This document shows, piece by piece, positions 47,619 to 63,935 of a stretch of DNA of 64,000 nucleotides (its first letter is position 1; each line of letters begins with the position of its first letter). The stretch is taken from the NCBI GenBank assembly GCA_013205245.1, contig JABMNH010000064.1, positions 1 to 64,000 of the forward strand, written 5' to 3'. A program made the position numbers and the translations under genes. Source of the DNA: Flavobacteriales bacterium (GTDB lineage Bacteria; Bacteroidota; Bacteroidia; Flavobacteriales; Flavobacteriaceae). Under the pieces are notes generated by a model, which was not told where the DNA came from, did not search any database, and saw only the letters and a program-made list of their open reading frames with translations.

Positions 47619-50282
47619 TTAATTACTACTAAAAGTGATATTGTCAAAGTAAACTACGTTATCAGAAGTTCTTCCTCCTAAATCAAAATCAGGGAAAATA
47701 ATTATTTGATCAATAATTCCTGTAACTCCTTTACCAATACTACCTGATAAATCAAAGGTTAATTCTTCCCATTCGTTTATTTTAGTATTAGCAACCTTTA
47801 CTTCAGGTTGTGCTTCAGCACCTACTCCAGCAGGAGCAAATTCTGCAAATTTAAGAGCAACATCACTGATTACTGATTTATAAACCCAAATTCTAACAAT
47901 TTTATTTGAAGCATCAAAACTAAATGACCCAATACCTTCACCGTGTGTAGATTCACATCCAACCCATGGCTGACCGCCTGTTAAAGCTGTAATTTTAGCA
48001 ACGGTAGCAGACGTGTTTCCAGTTGTATTTGGATTTGCAACAATTTCTACTGCAGGATTTGAAACATTTTCAAAAACAGTCCAAGTCCAATCAGCACCAT
48101 TACCACCTGCTTCAAAATCAATTGGGTTAAAAGGAGCTGTTCCAGTACCTGTCCCACCGCCCGAGTTTCCGCCACCGCCGGTATTGGTACCATCTCTAAC
48201 TAATTTGAAACTCCAGAATACTCCAGTACCAGCTTCTATTACCAGATTCATGGTATTATCATTATCAGATAATACTATATCATATGTTATAGATGCAGGA
48301 ACAGCAACATTTGGTAATTCTCCAGCATTGTTTGCTTTAGGTATTCCCAAATAGGCGCCAGCCCCATTAAGTGTAATTTTTCCTGCAGTTCCATCATAAG
48401 TATAAGTTGCAACAGCAGTTCCATCATACGGAGCTACTGGTGTTCCACAAGCATCTGCCGTTCCTTGCCATCCCTCAAGCCAAGTATCAGTACCAAGAAC
48501 ATTACTAAATGATCCATTAGAGAAAACATACGTGTCATCAAAAAAGCAAGCTCTATCAATTACAGCTTGTGCGTCGCTTGTCCACCAATTACCAGCGCCA
48601 TAGCTATCTCCTACTTTTAATACTCCTGCTTCTGGTGACATTTTCCATGTACCTTCTACTGGCGGTGTCATTTCAGCATCTCTTATAAGTTTGAAACTCC
48701 AGAATACGCCAGTACCAGTTTCAATAACCAAATTCATGGTGTTATCATTATCAGATAATACTATATTATATGTGATTGATGTTGGCACGGCAACATTTGG
48801 TAATTCTCCTGCATTGTTTGCTTTTGGAATTCCTAAATAAGCACCTGTGCCATTAATAGTAACAGTACCTGCATTTGCATCATAAGTATAATTACCAGCC
48901 GTACCATTATGAGGTGCTACAGGTACACCGCATGCATCTGCAGTTCCTTGCCAACCCTCGAGCCAAGTATCAGTACCAAGAACATTACTAAATGAACCAT
49001 CTGAATTAAAAACATACGTGTCATCGAAAAAGCACGCTCTGTCTATTACAGCTTGAGCATCACTTGTCCACCAATCACCATTCCCTGCGGATGGCCCTAC
49101 TTTTAAAGCGCCCGCTTCTGGTGCCATTTTCCAAGTACCGTCTAATACAGATGATGTTACTGTAGGTGCTTTATAGAAATATAGATTATCTATAAATACC
49201 GTTCCACCTGCCCAAGGAGCTCCTGTAAACTTAAATTGTTTTAGGTTATCCATTGGTAATCCTTGATCTGTAAAATCTGATAAAGGAATGTCAAAACTAT
49301 TCCACTGATTGGCAACAAGTACTTTTGTTACAAATCTCTCATCATCTGGCACAACACCATTTGGAAGAGGATAAATATCTATTGACATGTCGTCAGCAGT
49401 CCAAACATCAATATGAAGGAATTCCATAGAAGAAGCATTAATAGCTGAACCAATATCAATTCCTTGGTAACTTAAATTAATATAATTAAGCATTAAATTA
49501 CCATTTAAATCAAATTCGGCATAACTACTTCCCTGACCTGATTGACCCCAATCTGGATTATAATTTGAATCTGCTACATTTGTATAAGCATCGCTATAAA
49601 TAGAAATTACATCAACTTCTTGTCTAGAAGCTGGTGTTGCTACAGGTGCTAGCGGTTGCAAAATTGCAGTAACCACAAACTCTTGAGTAAACTCTGTAGT
49701 TTCAATAGCGGCGCCTTTTGCAACAACTCTAATAGTGTAGGTTCCTGCCGCTTGATAAATAAAAGAGGCTGTTTCGCCAATATTAGCTGTTACTGGCGTT
49801 TCGTCTGTTGTTTCACCAAAATAGACATCAAAAGAAGATGCAAAGTCAGCTGTTGCAGACACATTTACTTGTTTTGAAACAGCTAAATCGTTTGCAATGG
49901 TAACTTCTAAATTTTCTGGTGATTTGAATGACACCACTAAAGGTTGTGTAACTTCGGCTTTTAAGCCTGTTATACCATTTCCTATAATCTTTACATCATA
50001 ATTACCTTCGTTATAGGTATGTGAGATGGCTTCGCCTTGTTTTATATTTACAGGCGTTGTTGTGGTATCGCCAAAATAAATATCGTAAGTAATAACACCA
50101 TCGCCATTTGGTGTAATTGTTACAAAGCCCGTATTGTCTTGTGCAACGTTATATAGTGCCGATATATTTGCTGGTGCTTGAACTGTTTTGATAAAATCAA
50201 TATCTCCAAAATTATCTTTGGTACAACTCCAAACAACGCTTATTAGTAAAATGGCACTTAAAAAATATTTTAATGCTTTCAT
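47619..50282 (-). CDS. Large multi-module surface glycan-binding lipoprotein (SusE-position)
   Basis: 887 residues. Lipobox in LLISVVWSCTKD. Two PKD/Ig-like domains (about 30-205) precede a binding-like module (208-378, DVISIYSDAYTNVADSNYNP ... GTVFIDNLYFYKAP) homologous to those of the T9SS protein. Two near-identical 162-residue domains follow (382-543 and 544-700; GTWKMAPEAG / GTWKMSPEAG to FWSFKL). A glycine linker and a C-terminal module (718-887) rich in aromatic residues (GADWTWTVFENVSN, GGQPWVGCESTHG) end it. The gene follows susD, the place of SusE-type binders, so it likely holds laminarin at the surface. Confidence 0.8.
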   Translation of the reverse strand: MKALKYFLSAILLISVVWSCTKDNFGDIDFIKTVQAPANISALYNVAQDNTGFVTITPNGDGVITYDIYFGDTTTTPVNIKQGEAISHTYNEGNYDVKIIGNGITGLKAEVTQPLVVSFKSPENLEVTIANDLAVSKQVNVSATADFASSFDVYFGETTDETPVTANIGETASFIYQAAGTYTIRVVAKGAAIETTEFTQEFVVTAILQPLAPVATPASRQEVDVISIYSDAYTNVADSNYNPDWGQSGQGSSYAEFDLNGNLMLNYINLSYQGIDIGSAINASSMEFLHIDVWTADDMSIDIYPLPNGVVPDDERFVTKVLVANQWNSFDIPLSDFTDQGLPMDNLKQFKFTGAPWAGGTVFIDNLYFYKAPTVTSSVLDGTWKMAPEAGALKVGPSAGNGDWWTSDAQAVIDRACFFDDTYVFNSDGSFSNVLGTDTWLEGWQGTADACGVPVAPHNGTAGNYTYDANAGTVTINGTGAYLGIPKANNAGELPNVAVPTSITYNIVLSDNDNTMNLVIETGTGVFWSFKLIRDAEMTPPVEGTWKMSPEAGVLKVGDSYGAGNWWTSDAQAVIDRACFFDDTYVFSNGSFSNVLGTDTWLEGWQGTADACGTPVAPYDGTAVATYTYDGTAGKITLNGAGAYLGIPKANNAGELPNVAVPASITYDIVLSDNDNTMNLVIEAGTGVFWSFKLVRDGTNTGGGGNSGGGTGTGTAPFNPIDFEAGGNGADWTWTVFENVSNPAVEIVANPNTTGNTSATVAKITALTGGQPWVGCESTHGEGIGSFSFDASNKIVRIWVYKSVISDVALKFAEFAPAGVGAEAQPEVKVANTKINEWEELTFDLSGSIGKGVTGIIDQIIIFPDFDLGGRTSDNVVYFDNITFSSN
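48186..49139 (-). repeat. Tandem duplication of a 486-bp coding segment in the glycan-binding gene
   Basis: Copies start at 49139 and 48653, exactly 486 bp (162 codons) apart, and are highly similar at DNA level (for example both hold TCAGTACCAAGAACATTACT and CATTATCAGATAATACTAT). The duplication keeps the frame. Confidence 0.85.
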
Positions 50283-57908: not shown

Positions 57909-58023
57909 TTCAAAAATTTAAATTAGATATAAGTATCGTAAAAATATAGATTTTTTAATTAACTATATTACTTATCTCAAAAACGACTTGAAATCGATTG
58001 TAAGCTTCAGATTGATGGCTCAT

Positions 58024-59562
58024 TTATTCTTCTAAAAAAATGGTTTTATAATTCGTTTCGATATCCTTAATTTCTTTCTCTTTTAACGCCGAAAATTCCT
58101 TTTTTAAAGCTCTTTTTGATAATACACCATTATTTTGATCTAAAAAGCGAACTAATATAGCAACCATCTTATCCGGCATTTCAAAATTGTTATCTATATA
58201 TTTTTTAAAATCATCATAGTTTTGCAAATAGGTTACTTCTTCCGGAATAACACGTTCTAAAGTATCTTCCACACAGTCATATAAAAACTCTGCTTGTTTA
58301 GTTGCGTCAAAATAACGGTAAAGATCTATAGTATCGTTTGTAACTTCTACATTATGATCTTCGGTTTCTTTCCATTGAATATGGTCCAATAAGGGATGTG
58401 AATAAGTTTCTAAAACACTTTTATAATCATCAATGTGGTCTAGTATGGATGACGATACGGGAAAGATAACGCCTTGTTGTGTAAATTCTTTTTTTGCCAA
58501 AATATGATGAATAATATAACGATGTAAACGGCCATTTCCATCAACAAATGGATGAATAAACACAAAACCAAATGCTATGGTAGCTGCTGCTAGTACAGCA
58601 TCGTAGGTTTGATCTTGCAATGATTCATTGGTGGCAATTAATCCTTTTAATAATTGTTCAACATTATCTTCTTTGGCAGAAATATGGTCCGGAATTGGTT
58701 CGCCTGTGGTACGGTCATGTTCGCCAACAAATCCTCCTTTTTTTCTTAGACCCATATCTATAAACCTACTGTTTTCTATTACTATTTGCTGTAATCGAAT
58801 TAATTCTTCAATGCTTAATACTTTTTGACCTGCTTGACCAATGGCCTTTCCCCAACGCATCGCTCTATTATTTTCGGGATTTTCGCCTTCTATGGTAAAT
58901 GAAGCTTTAGAATCTTTTAACAACAAAAAAGAAGATGCTCTTTGTAAGACATCTTTATGGATACTGTTTAGGAATGTGTTTTTCTTTCCTGAGATATTTG
59001 CATTTATATGTGTTTCTAATTTTTCGGTTTTAAATATTAACGGACAATAATCTCTGGTTCCAGGAAGATTGTTTACAATGCGATGTCTCGAAGATCGTAC
59101 ACCTTTTATTGTGTATTGTAGTTTTTCGTCCAGTAATGGTACATAATTACCACTTTCTAAATCTTGAATATTTAATTTAGTTTGTAAAAGCCATTCATAT
59201 AAAAACCAAATTCTACGACTATATTGACCTAATGTTTCTAATGTAATAATACTTTCTATCTCTGATTTTGGTGTAATTTCAAATAGTTTTTTGAGCACCA
59301 ACAAATTGACACCTTCATATTTTAATGCGAATATTAATTGTTTATAAAGGGAGTCTTCTGGTTGATGTCTAGAAGTTAAGACCCTCCAATTTTCTGTGGT
59401 GTATTTTCGTTTTTTAAAACTAATAAGTGCTAATTTATTTGGTATTGGAACAGCCAATTTATAGGCTTCAATTATAGCACCATAACCCACCAAATTACCT
59501 TCCTCTGGCGCTTTTATGCCGTGAAAAACAGTTATTTTGAGTGAAAAATGATTATAATTCAT
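58024..59562 (-). CDS. Fic family protein, class II self-inhibited AMPylase type
   Basis: 512 residues. The Fic motif HPFVDGNGR is at 337-345 with catalytic His337. An inhibitory motif [ST]xxxE[GN] is present N-terminally: SFTIEG with Glu225, as in class II Fic proteins, which block their own ATP site until activated. A C-terminal wing-like region (about 450-512, FLDQNNGVLSKRALKKEFSAL) may bind DNA or partner. Fic enzymes transfer AMP to target hydroxyls; the target is unknown. The first codons and upstream DNA carry six phased repeats. Confidence 0.88.
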   Translation of the reverse strand: MNYNHFSLKITVFHGIKAPEEGNLVGYGAIIEAYKLAVPIPNKLALISFKKRKYTTENWRVLTSRHQPEDSLYKQLIFALKYEGVNLLVLKKLFEITPKSEIESIITLETLGQYSRRIWFLYEWLLQTKLNIQDLESGNYVPLLDEKLQYTIKGVRSSRHRIVNNLPGTRDYCPLIFKTEKLETHINANISGKKNTFLNSIHKDVLQRASSFLLLKDSKASFTIEGENPENNRAMRWGKAIGQAGQKVLSIEELIRLQQIVIENSRFIDMGLRKKGGFVGEHDRTTGEPIPDHISAKEDNVEQLLKGLIATNESLQDQTYDAVLAAATIAFGFVFIHPFVDGNGRLHRYIIHHILAKKEFTQQGVIFPVSSSILDHIDDYKSVLETYSHPLLDHIQWKETEDHNVEVTNDTIDLYRYFDATKQAEFLYDCVEDTLERVIPEEVTYLQNYDDFKKYIDNNFEMPDKMVAILVRFLDQNNGVLSKRALKKEFSALKEKEIKDIETNYKTIFLEE

Positions 59563-59660
59563 TGGTTTTGGTGAAAAATGATTATTAAAACATTGGTGAA
59601 AATCACTTATGATTGGTGAAAAATATTTATATTTTATGCTAATTGGTGAAAAACACTTAT
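59521..59660. repeat. Six-copy GTGAAAA-N4-TTAT repeat array at the fic start
   Basis: Copies begin at 59521, 59541, 59571, 59596, 59616 and 59646, spacings 20, 30, 25, 20, 30. The first three and last three form two diverged 75-bp units. The first two lie in the fic coding region; the other four lie upstream and carry an extra TTG in front. Likely an operator array. Confidence 0.8.
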
Positions 59661-59893
59661 CAAATATAATATAAAAATAGGTTTTATTTGCTTTTTTTAC
59701 GGAAAAACAGATTTTTGATATTGGTTTTTTAGGTTTTATTTTGGTTTTACAGGTGTTAATTATCTAAGTAATGGAAAAATAGGTTTAAAAACGTGCGCAA
59801 AACAAAAATTAATATGAAAACCCTGCGCAATAGTCTTTCACATTTTAAACAAACATTTGCTGCAACAGCCCTTTTTTAAAGGTTTGATCTATG

Positions 59894-60214: not shown

Positions 60215-60296
60215 TGCGGGCGGAGAGACTCGAACTCTCACACCTCGCGGCACCAGATCCTAAGTCTGGCGTGTCTACCAATTCCACCACGCCCGC
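60215..60296 (-). tRNA. tRNA-Leu (UAG)
   Basis: 82 nt. Acceptor strands GCGGGCG and CGCCCGC pair; the anticodon stem CCAGA/TCTGG encloses CTTAGGA, giving anticodon UAG. A long variable arm and the T arm (GAGAGTTCGAGTCTCTC) fit a class II leucine tRNA. The 3' CCA is not encoded. Confidence 0.95.
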
Positions 60297-60309
60297 ATTT
60301 TACCTATTA

Positions 60310-60399
60310 GCGTGTCTATCTCCCGATACTTCGGGACCACCACGCCCGCTTTTGCTTTCTGCGTGTTACCTCCCGACACATCGGGGGCACCACGCCCGC
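60310..60399 (-). repeat. Two partial tRNA-Leu 5' copies carrying hairpins
   Basis: 60310-60349 and 60361-60399 each repeat the tRNA's first twelve bases (GCGGGCGTGGTG) and its later ACACGC, but the D-arm between is replaced by a hairpin: TCCCGA-TACT-TCGGGA in the first, TCCCGA-CACA-TCGGGG in the second. They lie immediately upstream of the real tRNA. Neither can fold into a tRNA. The following DNA to 60490 is AT-rich with no gene. Confidence 0.8.
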
Positions 60400-60490
60400 A
60401 TTGTTTTGATTGCTTAGGACTATTTAATCAAACAAGGGTGCAAATATAAACAATAATATAAAATGCAAAGCAGTTAGGGTATAAATTTAT

Positions 60491-62886: not shown

Positions 62887-63483
62887 TTAGCTTAGAGCAA
62901 ATTCTATTAATGGTTTAATATTTCCATTGTCAGCTTCTCTTAATGTTTCAATATATGTTATTCTTACTTCATCTGCTTTAACCATATTTGATTGATGCCA
63001 AGTAAATATTTCCTTTCCAAAAATAGACTCCATTATTATATCAGCCATCATTCTAGAATGTCTACCGTTTCCATTTGGGAAACAATGAATCTGAACTATT
63101 CTGTGTTTAAACCTAATGGCTATTTCTTCAGGAGAATAAGTTTTGTTTTCTATCCAATATTTGGTGTCATCAACAAGACTTTTTAATTCTATTCCAATTA
63201 GAGTCCATTTAACTCCAATATTTTTCTCAGTTTTCCTAAACTCACCTGCCCATTTCCAAACGTCGCCATACATTTTTTTGTGTAAATCTTTTATAAATTT
63301 CTCGGTCAATAGTTTATCTAATTTAAAATTTGCATGAATTGTCCATTCAACTGCTTTTTCAATGTTTAGTTGTTCAAATTCGTCTAATTCTTTTTGTAGG
63401 GTAATTGTTTTTATTTTTAAGCCCCTTTTTTTTTCTTCATTTAAAGGCGTTTGTCCTTCTTCATATTTTAAATTTAATCCCAT
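62887..63483 (-). CDS. Mobile mystery protein B (Fic/DOC domain)
   Basis: 198 residues. The Fic-type motif is HCFPNGNGRHSR, with Asn where many Fic proteins have Asp/Glu. The N-terminus MGLNLKYEEGQTPLNEEKK and the segment KMYGDVWKWAGEFRKTEKNIG match the mobile mystery protein B family. The start overlaps the upstream mystery protein A gene by 10 bp, so the two are coupled, like toxin-antitoxin pairs. Activity toward a nucleotide and target is unknown. Confidence 0.87.
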   Translation of the reverse strand: MGLNLKYEEGQTPLNEEKKRGLKIKTITLQKELDEFEQLNIEKAVEWTIHANFKLDKLLTEKFIKDLHKKMYGDVWKWAGEFRKTEKNIGVKWTLIGIELKSLVDDTKYWIENKTYSPEEIAIRFKHRIVQIHCFPNGNGRHSRMMADIIMESIFGKEIFTWHQSNMVKADEVRITYIETLREADNGNIKPLIEFALS

Positions 63484-63935
63484 AACGATTTTCTCATTTC
63501 TCTTTTAATTTCTGCAGCTAAGTCAATAATAGATTGGTTTATTTTTTCATCATTTATTCCTTGGTTCTCTAATTTCATGTTTTGATTGGTTCTTAATACA
63601 ATTTTTTTGGCCATTGTTTGAACTTTTATATTAATTAAATTGTCGATAGTTCCATCCTTTGGGACAAATCCATAAACAAATTGCATGTCCAATGCCTTAC
63701 CAACATCCTTTAGTTTGTTGATTGAAATTTGGCCTGCAGCCTCACGTTCTTCAATTTTTTGGATAGCTCCTTTTGTTAACCCTAGTTTGGCTCCTAATTG
63801 GCTCATCGTCATGTTAAGTGCCGTTCTAATATTATTTATCCATCCCTTCTGTGGAGACAAGACCGTTTCGGTGCCTTTAAATACAGCTAGTTTCTGGTCC
63901 AGTTGTTCTATTAGTAGTTTTTTTTTGTTCCTCAT
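63474..63935 (-). CDS. Mobile mystery protein A (HTH regulator)
   Basis: 153 residues. A helix-turn-helix of the XRE type (NMTMSQLGAKLGLTKGAIQK) lies at about 42-62, with the family's IEEREAAGQISINKL and KALDMQFVYGFVPK. It is paired with mystery protein B and probably represses their shared promoter and perhaps neutralises the Fic partner; this is inference from arrangement. Confidence 0.85.
   Translation of the reverse strand: MRNKKKLLIEQLDQKLAVFKGTETVLSPQKGWINNIRTALNMTMSQLGAKLGLTKGAIQKIEEREAAGQISINKLKDVGKALDMQFVYGFVPKDGTIDNLINIKVQTMAKKIVLRTNQNMKLENQGINDEKINQSIIDLAAEIKREMRKSLWD

Follow-up and report, generated by a model that had tools for sequence, protein, structure and literature searches.

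A class II Fic gene from a member of the Flavobacteriales carries six direct repeats across its start region, and these repeats probably constitute an autoregulatory operator of a self-contained Fic system (AMPylase-type, PADLOC candidate PDC-S24) with a swappable N-terminal reader domain. Very little is known about the control of class II Fic enzymes. Sequence comparison shows five features of the loci: conservation of the array, its geometry, a DNA-level constraint on codons, covariation with the N-terminal domain of Fic, and exchange as a cassette. Binding, repression, and a defensive role are inferred. The gene lies in a stretch of 64,000 nucleotides (contig JABMNH010000064.1, positions 1 to 64,000) that we call the window. 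The gene, its proposed reader domain, and the putative operator copies are as follows.

58024 to 59562, minus strand: fic gene, 512 aa, class II Fic with the motif HPFVDGNGR (Pfam Fic, E = 2.2e-12; alignment)
58993 to 59562, minus strand: N-terminal domain (residues 1 to 190), proposed operator reader (AF2 pLDDT 93; the motif tracks the domain)
59646 to 59660, minus strand: operator copy 1 (triplet 1), ATAAGTGTTTTTCAC on the fic strand (exact match; PWM score 21.1)
59616 to 59630, minus strand: operator copy 2 (triplet 1), 30 bp beyond copy 1 (exact match, PWM)
59596 to 59610, minus strand: operator copy 3 (triplet 1), 20 bp beyond copy 2 (exact match, PWM)
59571 to 59585, minus strand: operator copy 4 (triplet 2), abutting the start codon (exact match, PWM; at -23 in most orthologs)
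59541 to 59555, minus strand: operator copy 5 (triplet 2), within fic, coding for ..H-F-S (exact match, PWM)
59521 to 59535, minus strand: operator copy 6 (triplet 2), within fic, coding for I-T-V-F-H (exact match, PWM)

On the plus strand, GTGAAAANNNNTTAT occurs exactly six times (59521, 59541, 59571, 59596, 59616, and 59646) at spacings of 20-30-25-20-30, with no further exact match within the 64 kb; the fic-strand reading is ATAANNNNTTTTCAC. Dinucleotide shuffles of the window contained a mean of 0.22 matches (maximum, 2), and shuffles of the local 600-bp stretch a mean of 0.0034. The six-copy GTGAAAA-N4-TTAT array of the original prediction is thus present as described, every copy exact, and a repeat (D1) of 69 nt that is 72% identical and 75 bp apart was likewise confirmed. 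Copies 1 to 3 are upstream of fic, and the open reading frame contains just two copies, 5 and 6. These lie 20 bp apart and are therefore read in different frames (TTT-TCA, Phe-Ser; TTT-CAC, Phe-His), which makes inapplicable the earlier argument that 75 bp, as 25 codons, would keep copies inside the gene in frame.

One scan of 84,980 species genomes yielded 80 fic orthologs. A search for the array in other genomes with this gene, proposed along with the prediction, found the repeats upstream of orthologs from Flavobacteria, Bacteroidales, Cytophagales, Proteobacteria, Spirochaetes, and Ignavibacteria, on chromosomes or plasmids. A position matrix (consensus xTAAYCRTTTTTCAYG) gave a mean of 4.6 sites per locus between -300 and +70; the corresponding means were 0.14 for the opposite strand and 0.04 within genes. 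At least three window-type sites occur in 71 of 81 loci, and the loci below this number mostly carry variant motifs in the same geometry. This result contradicts the refuting condition stated with the prediction, a lack of the repeats at orthologous fic loci. Since the matrix was refined on the very regions that it scored, an unsupervised test matters, in which any three similar 15-mers were sought at any spacing in strictly upstream (noncoding) sequence. The spacing pair (30,20) was found in 38 loci, (20,26) in 16, and (29,20) in 9; the (20,26) pairing is probably the same array read across the gap between triplets. As (30,20) was the commonest, the conserved unit by this count is a direct-repeat triplet spaced 30 and 20 bp and not a 75-bp block. 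Two triplets per locus are usual, placed around the promoter and start codon: the second has its sites at -23, +7, and +27 from the start, and the first varies in position, approximately 22 to 112 bp farther upstream. Given this variable distance and the constant 30-20 spacing within the triplet, we rejected the 75-bp repeat unit as locus specific. Three more distant homologs (L143, L155, and L159) keep 30-20 or 31-20 spacing with unrelated-looking motifs. In L143, whose Fic is 44% identical, the 30-20 triplets consist of a very different motif (TTGGAACC), and position 138 is Val. Among the most distant homologs (Pseudomonas, ~28% identity), no clear array was seen in the one examined. Our literature searches found no publication on PDC-S24 and none describing operator arrays of this type.

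The copies inside the gene are biased in codon usage. Ser7, in copy 5, is encoded by TCA in 70 of 83 cases (background, 25%), and in copy 6 the codons are GTT for Val12 (54 of 57; background, 38%) and CAC for His14 (52 of 76; background, 29%), codon choices that show constraint at the level of DNA. Conservation of codons alone was ruled out as the cause of the array, given that noncoding sequence also contains the triplets and that the motif falls in two reading frames.

The window Fic matches the PADLOC PDC-S24 model (PDLC04966; E = 1.1e-199) over residues 22 to 510, near full length; PDC-S24 is a candidate phage-defence system of PADLOC, its name marking a candidate only. The catalytic motif HPFx[DE]GNGRxxR is present as HPFVDGNGRLHR, invariant or nearly so among 70 sequences, and the class II inhibitory helix ([ST]xxxE[GN]) as SFTIEG at residues 221 to 226, N-terminal to the Fic core and conserved in the alignment. 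The 50 matches listed in a fold search with the whole model were all Fic-core proteins. In four Dyadobacter loci (L073, L075, L081, and L088), Fic is extended at its C-terminus by ~190 residues that contain two H-x-T/S motifs (such as HITIF and HMTIG), an extension that we take to be reminiscent of 2H phosphoesterases.

To ask which part of Fic the motif follows is to compare distances: motif distance correlates with distance in the N-terminal domain (residues 21 to 185) given the C-half (partial Mantel r = 0.39, p = 0.0005), and the partial correlation with the C-half given the N-terminal domain is -0.28. By this measure the motif tracks the N-terminal domain (residues ~16 to 190) and not the C-half, and we define this domain, which has no Pfam match, as the proposed DNA-reading domain. 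L031 and L126 are fic copies from a single genome. Their identity is ~91% from -240 to -180, 30 to 78% from -180 to +480, and 88 to 100% over the remainder of the gene (mostly 90 to 100% beyond codon ~165); their operators are ACC and GCGCACG, respectively. The reciprocal case is the pair L042 and L120, in which identity is mostly 68 to 90% across the array-proximal part and codons 1 to ~160, and 50 to 75% elsewhere. When operator class is scored as three states, its changes number at least 14 on the C-half tree and 5 on the N-domain tree. These comparisons show that array and N-terminal domain have been exchanged between loci as one cassette, presumably by recombination, with ends placed near codons 160 to 165. 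The significance of fic loci lies partly in this exchange of putative regulator and operator as a single cassette. Lambdoid phage immunity regions, in which repressor and operators are likewise exchanged as one unit, belong to another protein family and function.

Within the N-terminal domain, two stretches covary with the operator.

59146 to 59151, minus strand: codons 138 and 139 (Gly-Asn), candidate for reading the motif's 5' half (98/98 class match)
59356 to 59373, minus strand: codons 64 to 69, candidate loop for reading the 3' half, CAC / CCA / TTT (covariation of residue 68)

Operator class (TAA, ACC, or GCG) and residue 138 match in all 98 loci of a table in which classes were assigned partly by eye and loci with unclear or other motifs were excluded: all 77 TAA loci have Gly at this position, and all 21 ACC or GCG loci have Lys (ACC) or either Lys or Arg (GCG). 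In the first locus set this position ranked highest among 512 columns, and four GCG-operator loci sampled later all have Lys138. The change to Lys or Arg is a single split on the N-domain tree, so the role of this residue is not independently replicated, and a phylogenetic sign test, with too few supported independent pairs, was not significant. Residue 68 is Phe in 4 of 4 TTTTTCCA loci and Pro in 47 of 47 TTTTTCA loci. From these comparisons, the N-terminal domain is well supported as the reader, and residue 138 is a strong candidate for a specificity position. Counting against the explanation that we favor, the ACC-type loci L031, L115, and L068 have TAA-like in-gene copies despite an upstream ACC triplet. 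The correspondence between residue 138 and operator class amounts to a code that can be read from sequence and makes control by Fic directly testable.

We propose that Fic protomers would bind head to tail on the 30/20-bp triplets, roughly on one face of the helix, such that one triplet would usually cover the promoter's upstream portion and the second the transcription start and first codons. Fic bound there would shut off its own gene. The position of the promoter bears on this proposal.

59661 to 59668, minus strand: Bacteroidota -7 box TATATTTG, at this locus 5' of triplet 1

That the repeats are bound as DNA by several copies of Fic, as the original prediction had suggested in speaking of a multimeric repressor, possibly Fic itself, appears most likely. 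The prediction's further suggestion, recognition through a C-terminal winged region, was not supported, and a C-terminal reader now seems very unlikely. It has a precedent in CccR, which employs a C-terminal HTH (PMC9755527), and the C-terminus of the window Fic is helical; however, near-identical C-halves occur with different operators (L031 and L126), diverged C-halves occur with the same class, and the partial correlation with the C-half is negative. The C-half could add nonspecific DNA contacts. A host regulator unlinked to fic might instead bind the array, a reading left some room by the fact that Fic as the reader is argued from sequence comparison. We consider it improbable, since in different phyla and on plasmids the array shares no neighbor but fic, and the array sequence changes jointly with the Fic N-terminal domain; fic is the only constant gene, the neighbors vary, and plasmid copies sit beside unrelated genes. 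Least probable of all is that the repeats act in an mRNA leader, through control of translation. Both T-type triplets follow the -7 box in the window (box at -106) and in L033 (box at -104), a placement that also counts against the explanation that we favor and by which all six copies in the window are possibly transcribed; but direct repeats at helical spacing suit DNA, and in most loci with a recognizable box (TAnnTTTG) triplet 1 is upstream of it. At 38 of 90 loci the triplets flank the box, which then sits at -29 to -34 and leaves triplet 1 untranscribed.

The closest known systems resemble the proposed one in part. CccR of Yersinia is a class II Fic protein that represses its own promoter (PMC9755527), and the window system resembles it in the enzyme with an inhibitory helix and in the predicted repression of its own promoter. 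In contrast to the palindromes and C-terminal HTH of CccR, the window has direct-repeat triplets, a putative N-terminal reader, and swappable specificity that follows the N-half. A Foldseek search with the N-domain model returned nothing significant (best E = 0.077, to Rv2827c). With a second structural aligner, the model matched Rv2827c with Z = 7.1 over 153 residues (next best, 3.6) and AbiEi with Z = 3.3, values below 8 that may reflect a mere common arrangement. The model opens with strands at residues 8 to 13 and 16 to 25, aligns only to Rv2827c residues 82 to 293, and contains no AbiEi-type N-terminal winged helix. The established DNA-binding domain of Rv2827c is its winged helix, and the Fic domain matches its C-terminal domain (PMC7319586), a part usually not credited with base reading; we treat the modeled resemblance as a lead only. 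Rv2827c and AbiEi are autoregulating DNA-binding antitoxins (PMC7319586), similar to the proposed system in autoregulation through several promoter sites and in this weak fold resemblance, but they are separate proteins with an N-terminal winged helix and inverted repeats, whereas the window's putative reader is fused to Fic and faces direct repeats. RptR, the repressor of type I restriction-modification (RM) islands (PMC12255303), shares three direct repeats at a defence promoter linked to type I RM, yet it is a separate 79-aa protein acting on TAGCTA palindromes, without Fic; we found neither such palindromes nor such a repressor, the motif here being the matrix consensus given above. SoFic and EcSofic are class II Fic toxins with reported anti-phage activity that differ by low similarity outside the Fic core; the parts of the two reports available to us (PMC12249575 and PMC11514479) do not describe an operator array.

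Arrays of the same kind also occur in viral sequences. In IMG/VR, where some stretches are near-duplicates and independent cases therefore fewer, the TAA-class dimer was found in 73 stretches at 20 bp versus 5 at a control spacing of 23 bp, the TTTTTCA triplet in 16 at 30-20 versus 2 at 27-23, and the GCGCACG dimer in 4 versus 0 at the control spacing; the ACC dimer was counted 10 times, without a control spacing. By a simple ORF call, 49 of the 73 dimers are intergenic. No Fic relative was detectable in any of the 73 TAA-dimer stretches and no N-domain match in 20 array-bearing viral records, both fic-bearing controls being positive, although the records may be fragments. Five large phages (L163, L172, L183, L214, and L228) have tRNA-Lys and tRNA-Tyr genes adjoined by arrays of three to four sites, some of which mix ACC-like and TAA-like sites. 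An RNA ligase-like gene lies near the array in some of these phages, and no fic was found in them. Among 50,697 named phages we found no fic, and blastn gave no convincing array match; fic is present on 258 plasmids. The assembly to which the window belongs includes, binned with its genome, an 11-kb contig that has genes for terminase and tape measure. This contig carries a TAA dimer (G000:C47 385-417; L263), two sites 20 bp apart of the same class as the window array, and the dimer was absent from all 98 other genomes searched. We discarded a second regulon in the window's genome, as the one further exact dimer is on this phage-packaging contig. In L205 (492 to 653) and L223, the first ~20 residues of a 54-aa ORF are the fic start (MDNKRFSFEISIFHGIQAP) with operator triplet 2, after which the ORF diverges.

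From their motifs and spacing, the viral arrays probably mimic the host fic operator. We tentatively suggest that reader-less phage arrays are DNA decoys or baits against Fic and that this pressure drives the swapping of operator and reader cassettes in bacteria; such an array could soak up Fic, change its expression, or employ it as a repressor. Were this true, it would represent counter-defence by operator mimicry, played out on operator sequence and not on proteins, and the arrays would provide a means to find phages that meet the Fic system. That the viral arrays are instead operators of an unrelated phage repressor, not directed at host Fic, has an appreciable probability but seems less likely than not. 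Some do lie near promoters or start codons (L250 and L205), but viral arrays share geometry and three motif classes with host arrays, L205 and L223 contain the fic gene start itself, and the 20 array-bearing records, possible fragments, lack a reader homolog that was detected in the controls.

Around the window fic, traces of earlier sequence are recognizable.

59669 to 59802, minus strand: decayed ACC-class array and one GCGCACGTTTTT copy (59787 to 59798) (73 to 75% identical to the L031 ACC-array region)
59845 to 59886, minus strand: hsdS 3'-end remnant (..QTFKKGLLQQMFV and stop), upstream of fic (sequence)
58003 to 58023, minus strand: hsdR 5'-end remnant (MSHQSEA..), directly after the fic stop (sequence)

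The decayed ACC array and the GCGCACGTTTTT copy, both upstream of the six-copy array, are likely leftovers of earlier alleles or cassettes. Around the gene there is no intact hsdM, hsdS, or hsdR but just the end of hsdS and the start of hsdR, which would fit the loss of a type I RM system there; hsd sequence occurs near fic in ~13 of 81 loci. HsdS target sites were excluded as the nature of the repeats, given that hsd sequence was undetectable near most of the loci and that the motif goes with the Fic N-terminal domain. Near fic, tandem 50-bp repeats of a tRNA 3' end (60284 to 60402) lie beside a tRNA gene (~60218 to 60297) and resemble scars of repeated integration. A second, short Fic gene (62887 to 63935, minus strand) overlaps an HTH gene, a pair presumably similar to the "mobile mystery protein" B/A pair. 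At 48191 to 49144, a 486-bp unit is present in two copies with 82% matches, probably within a gene.
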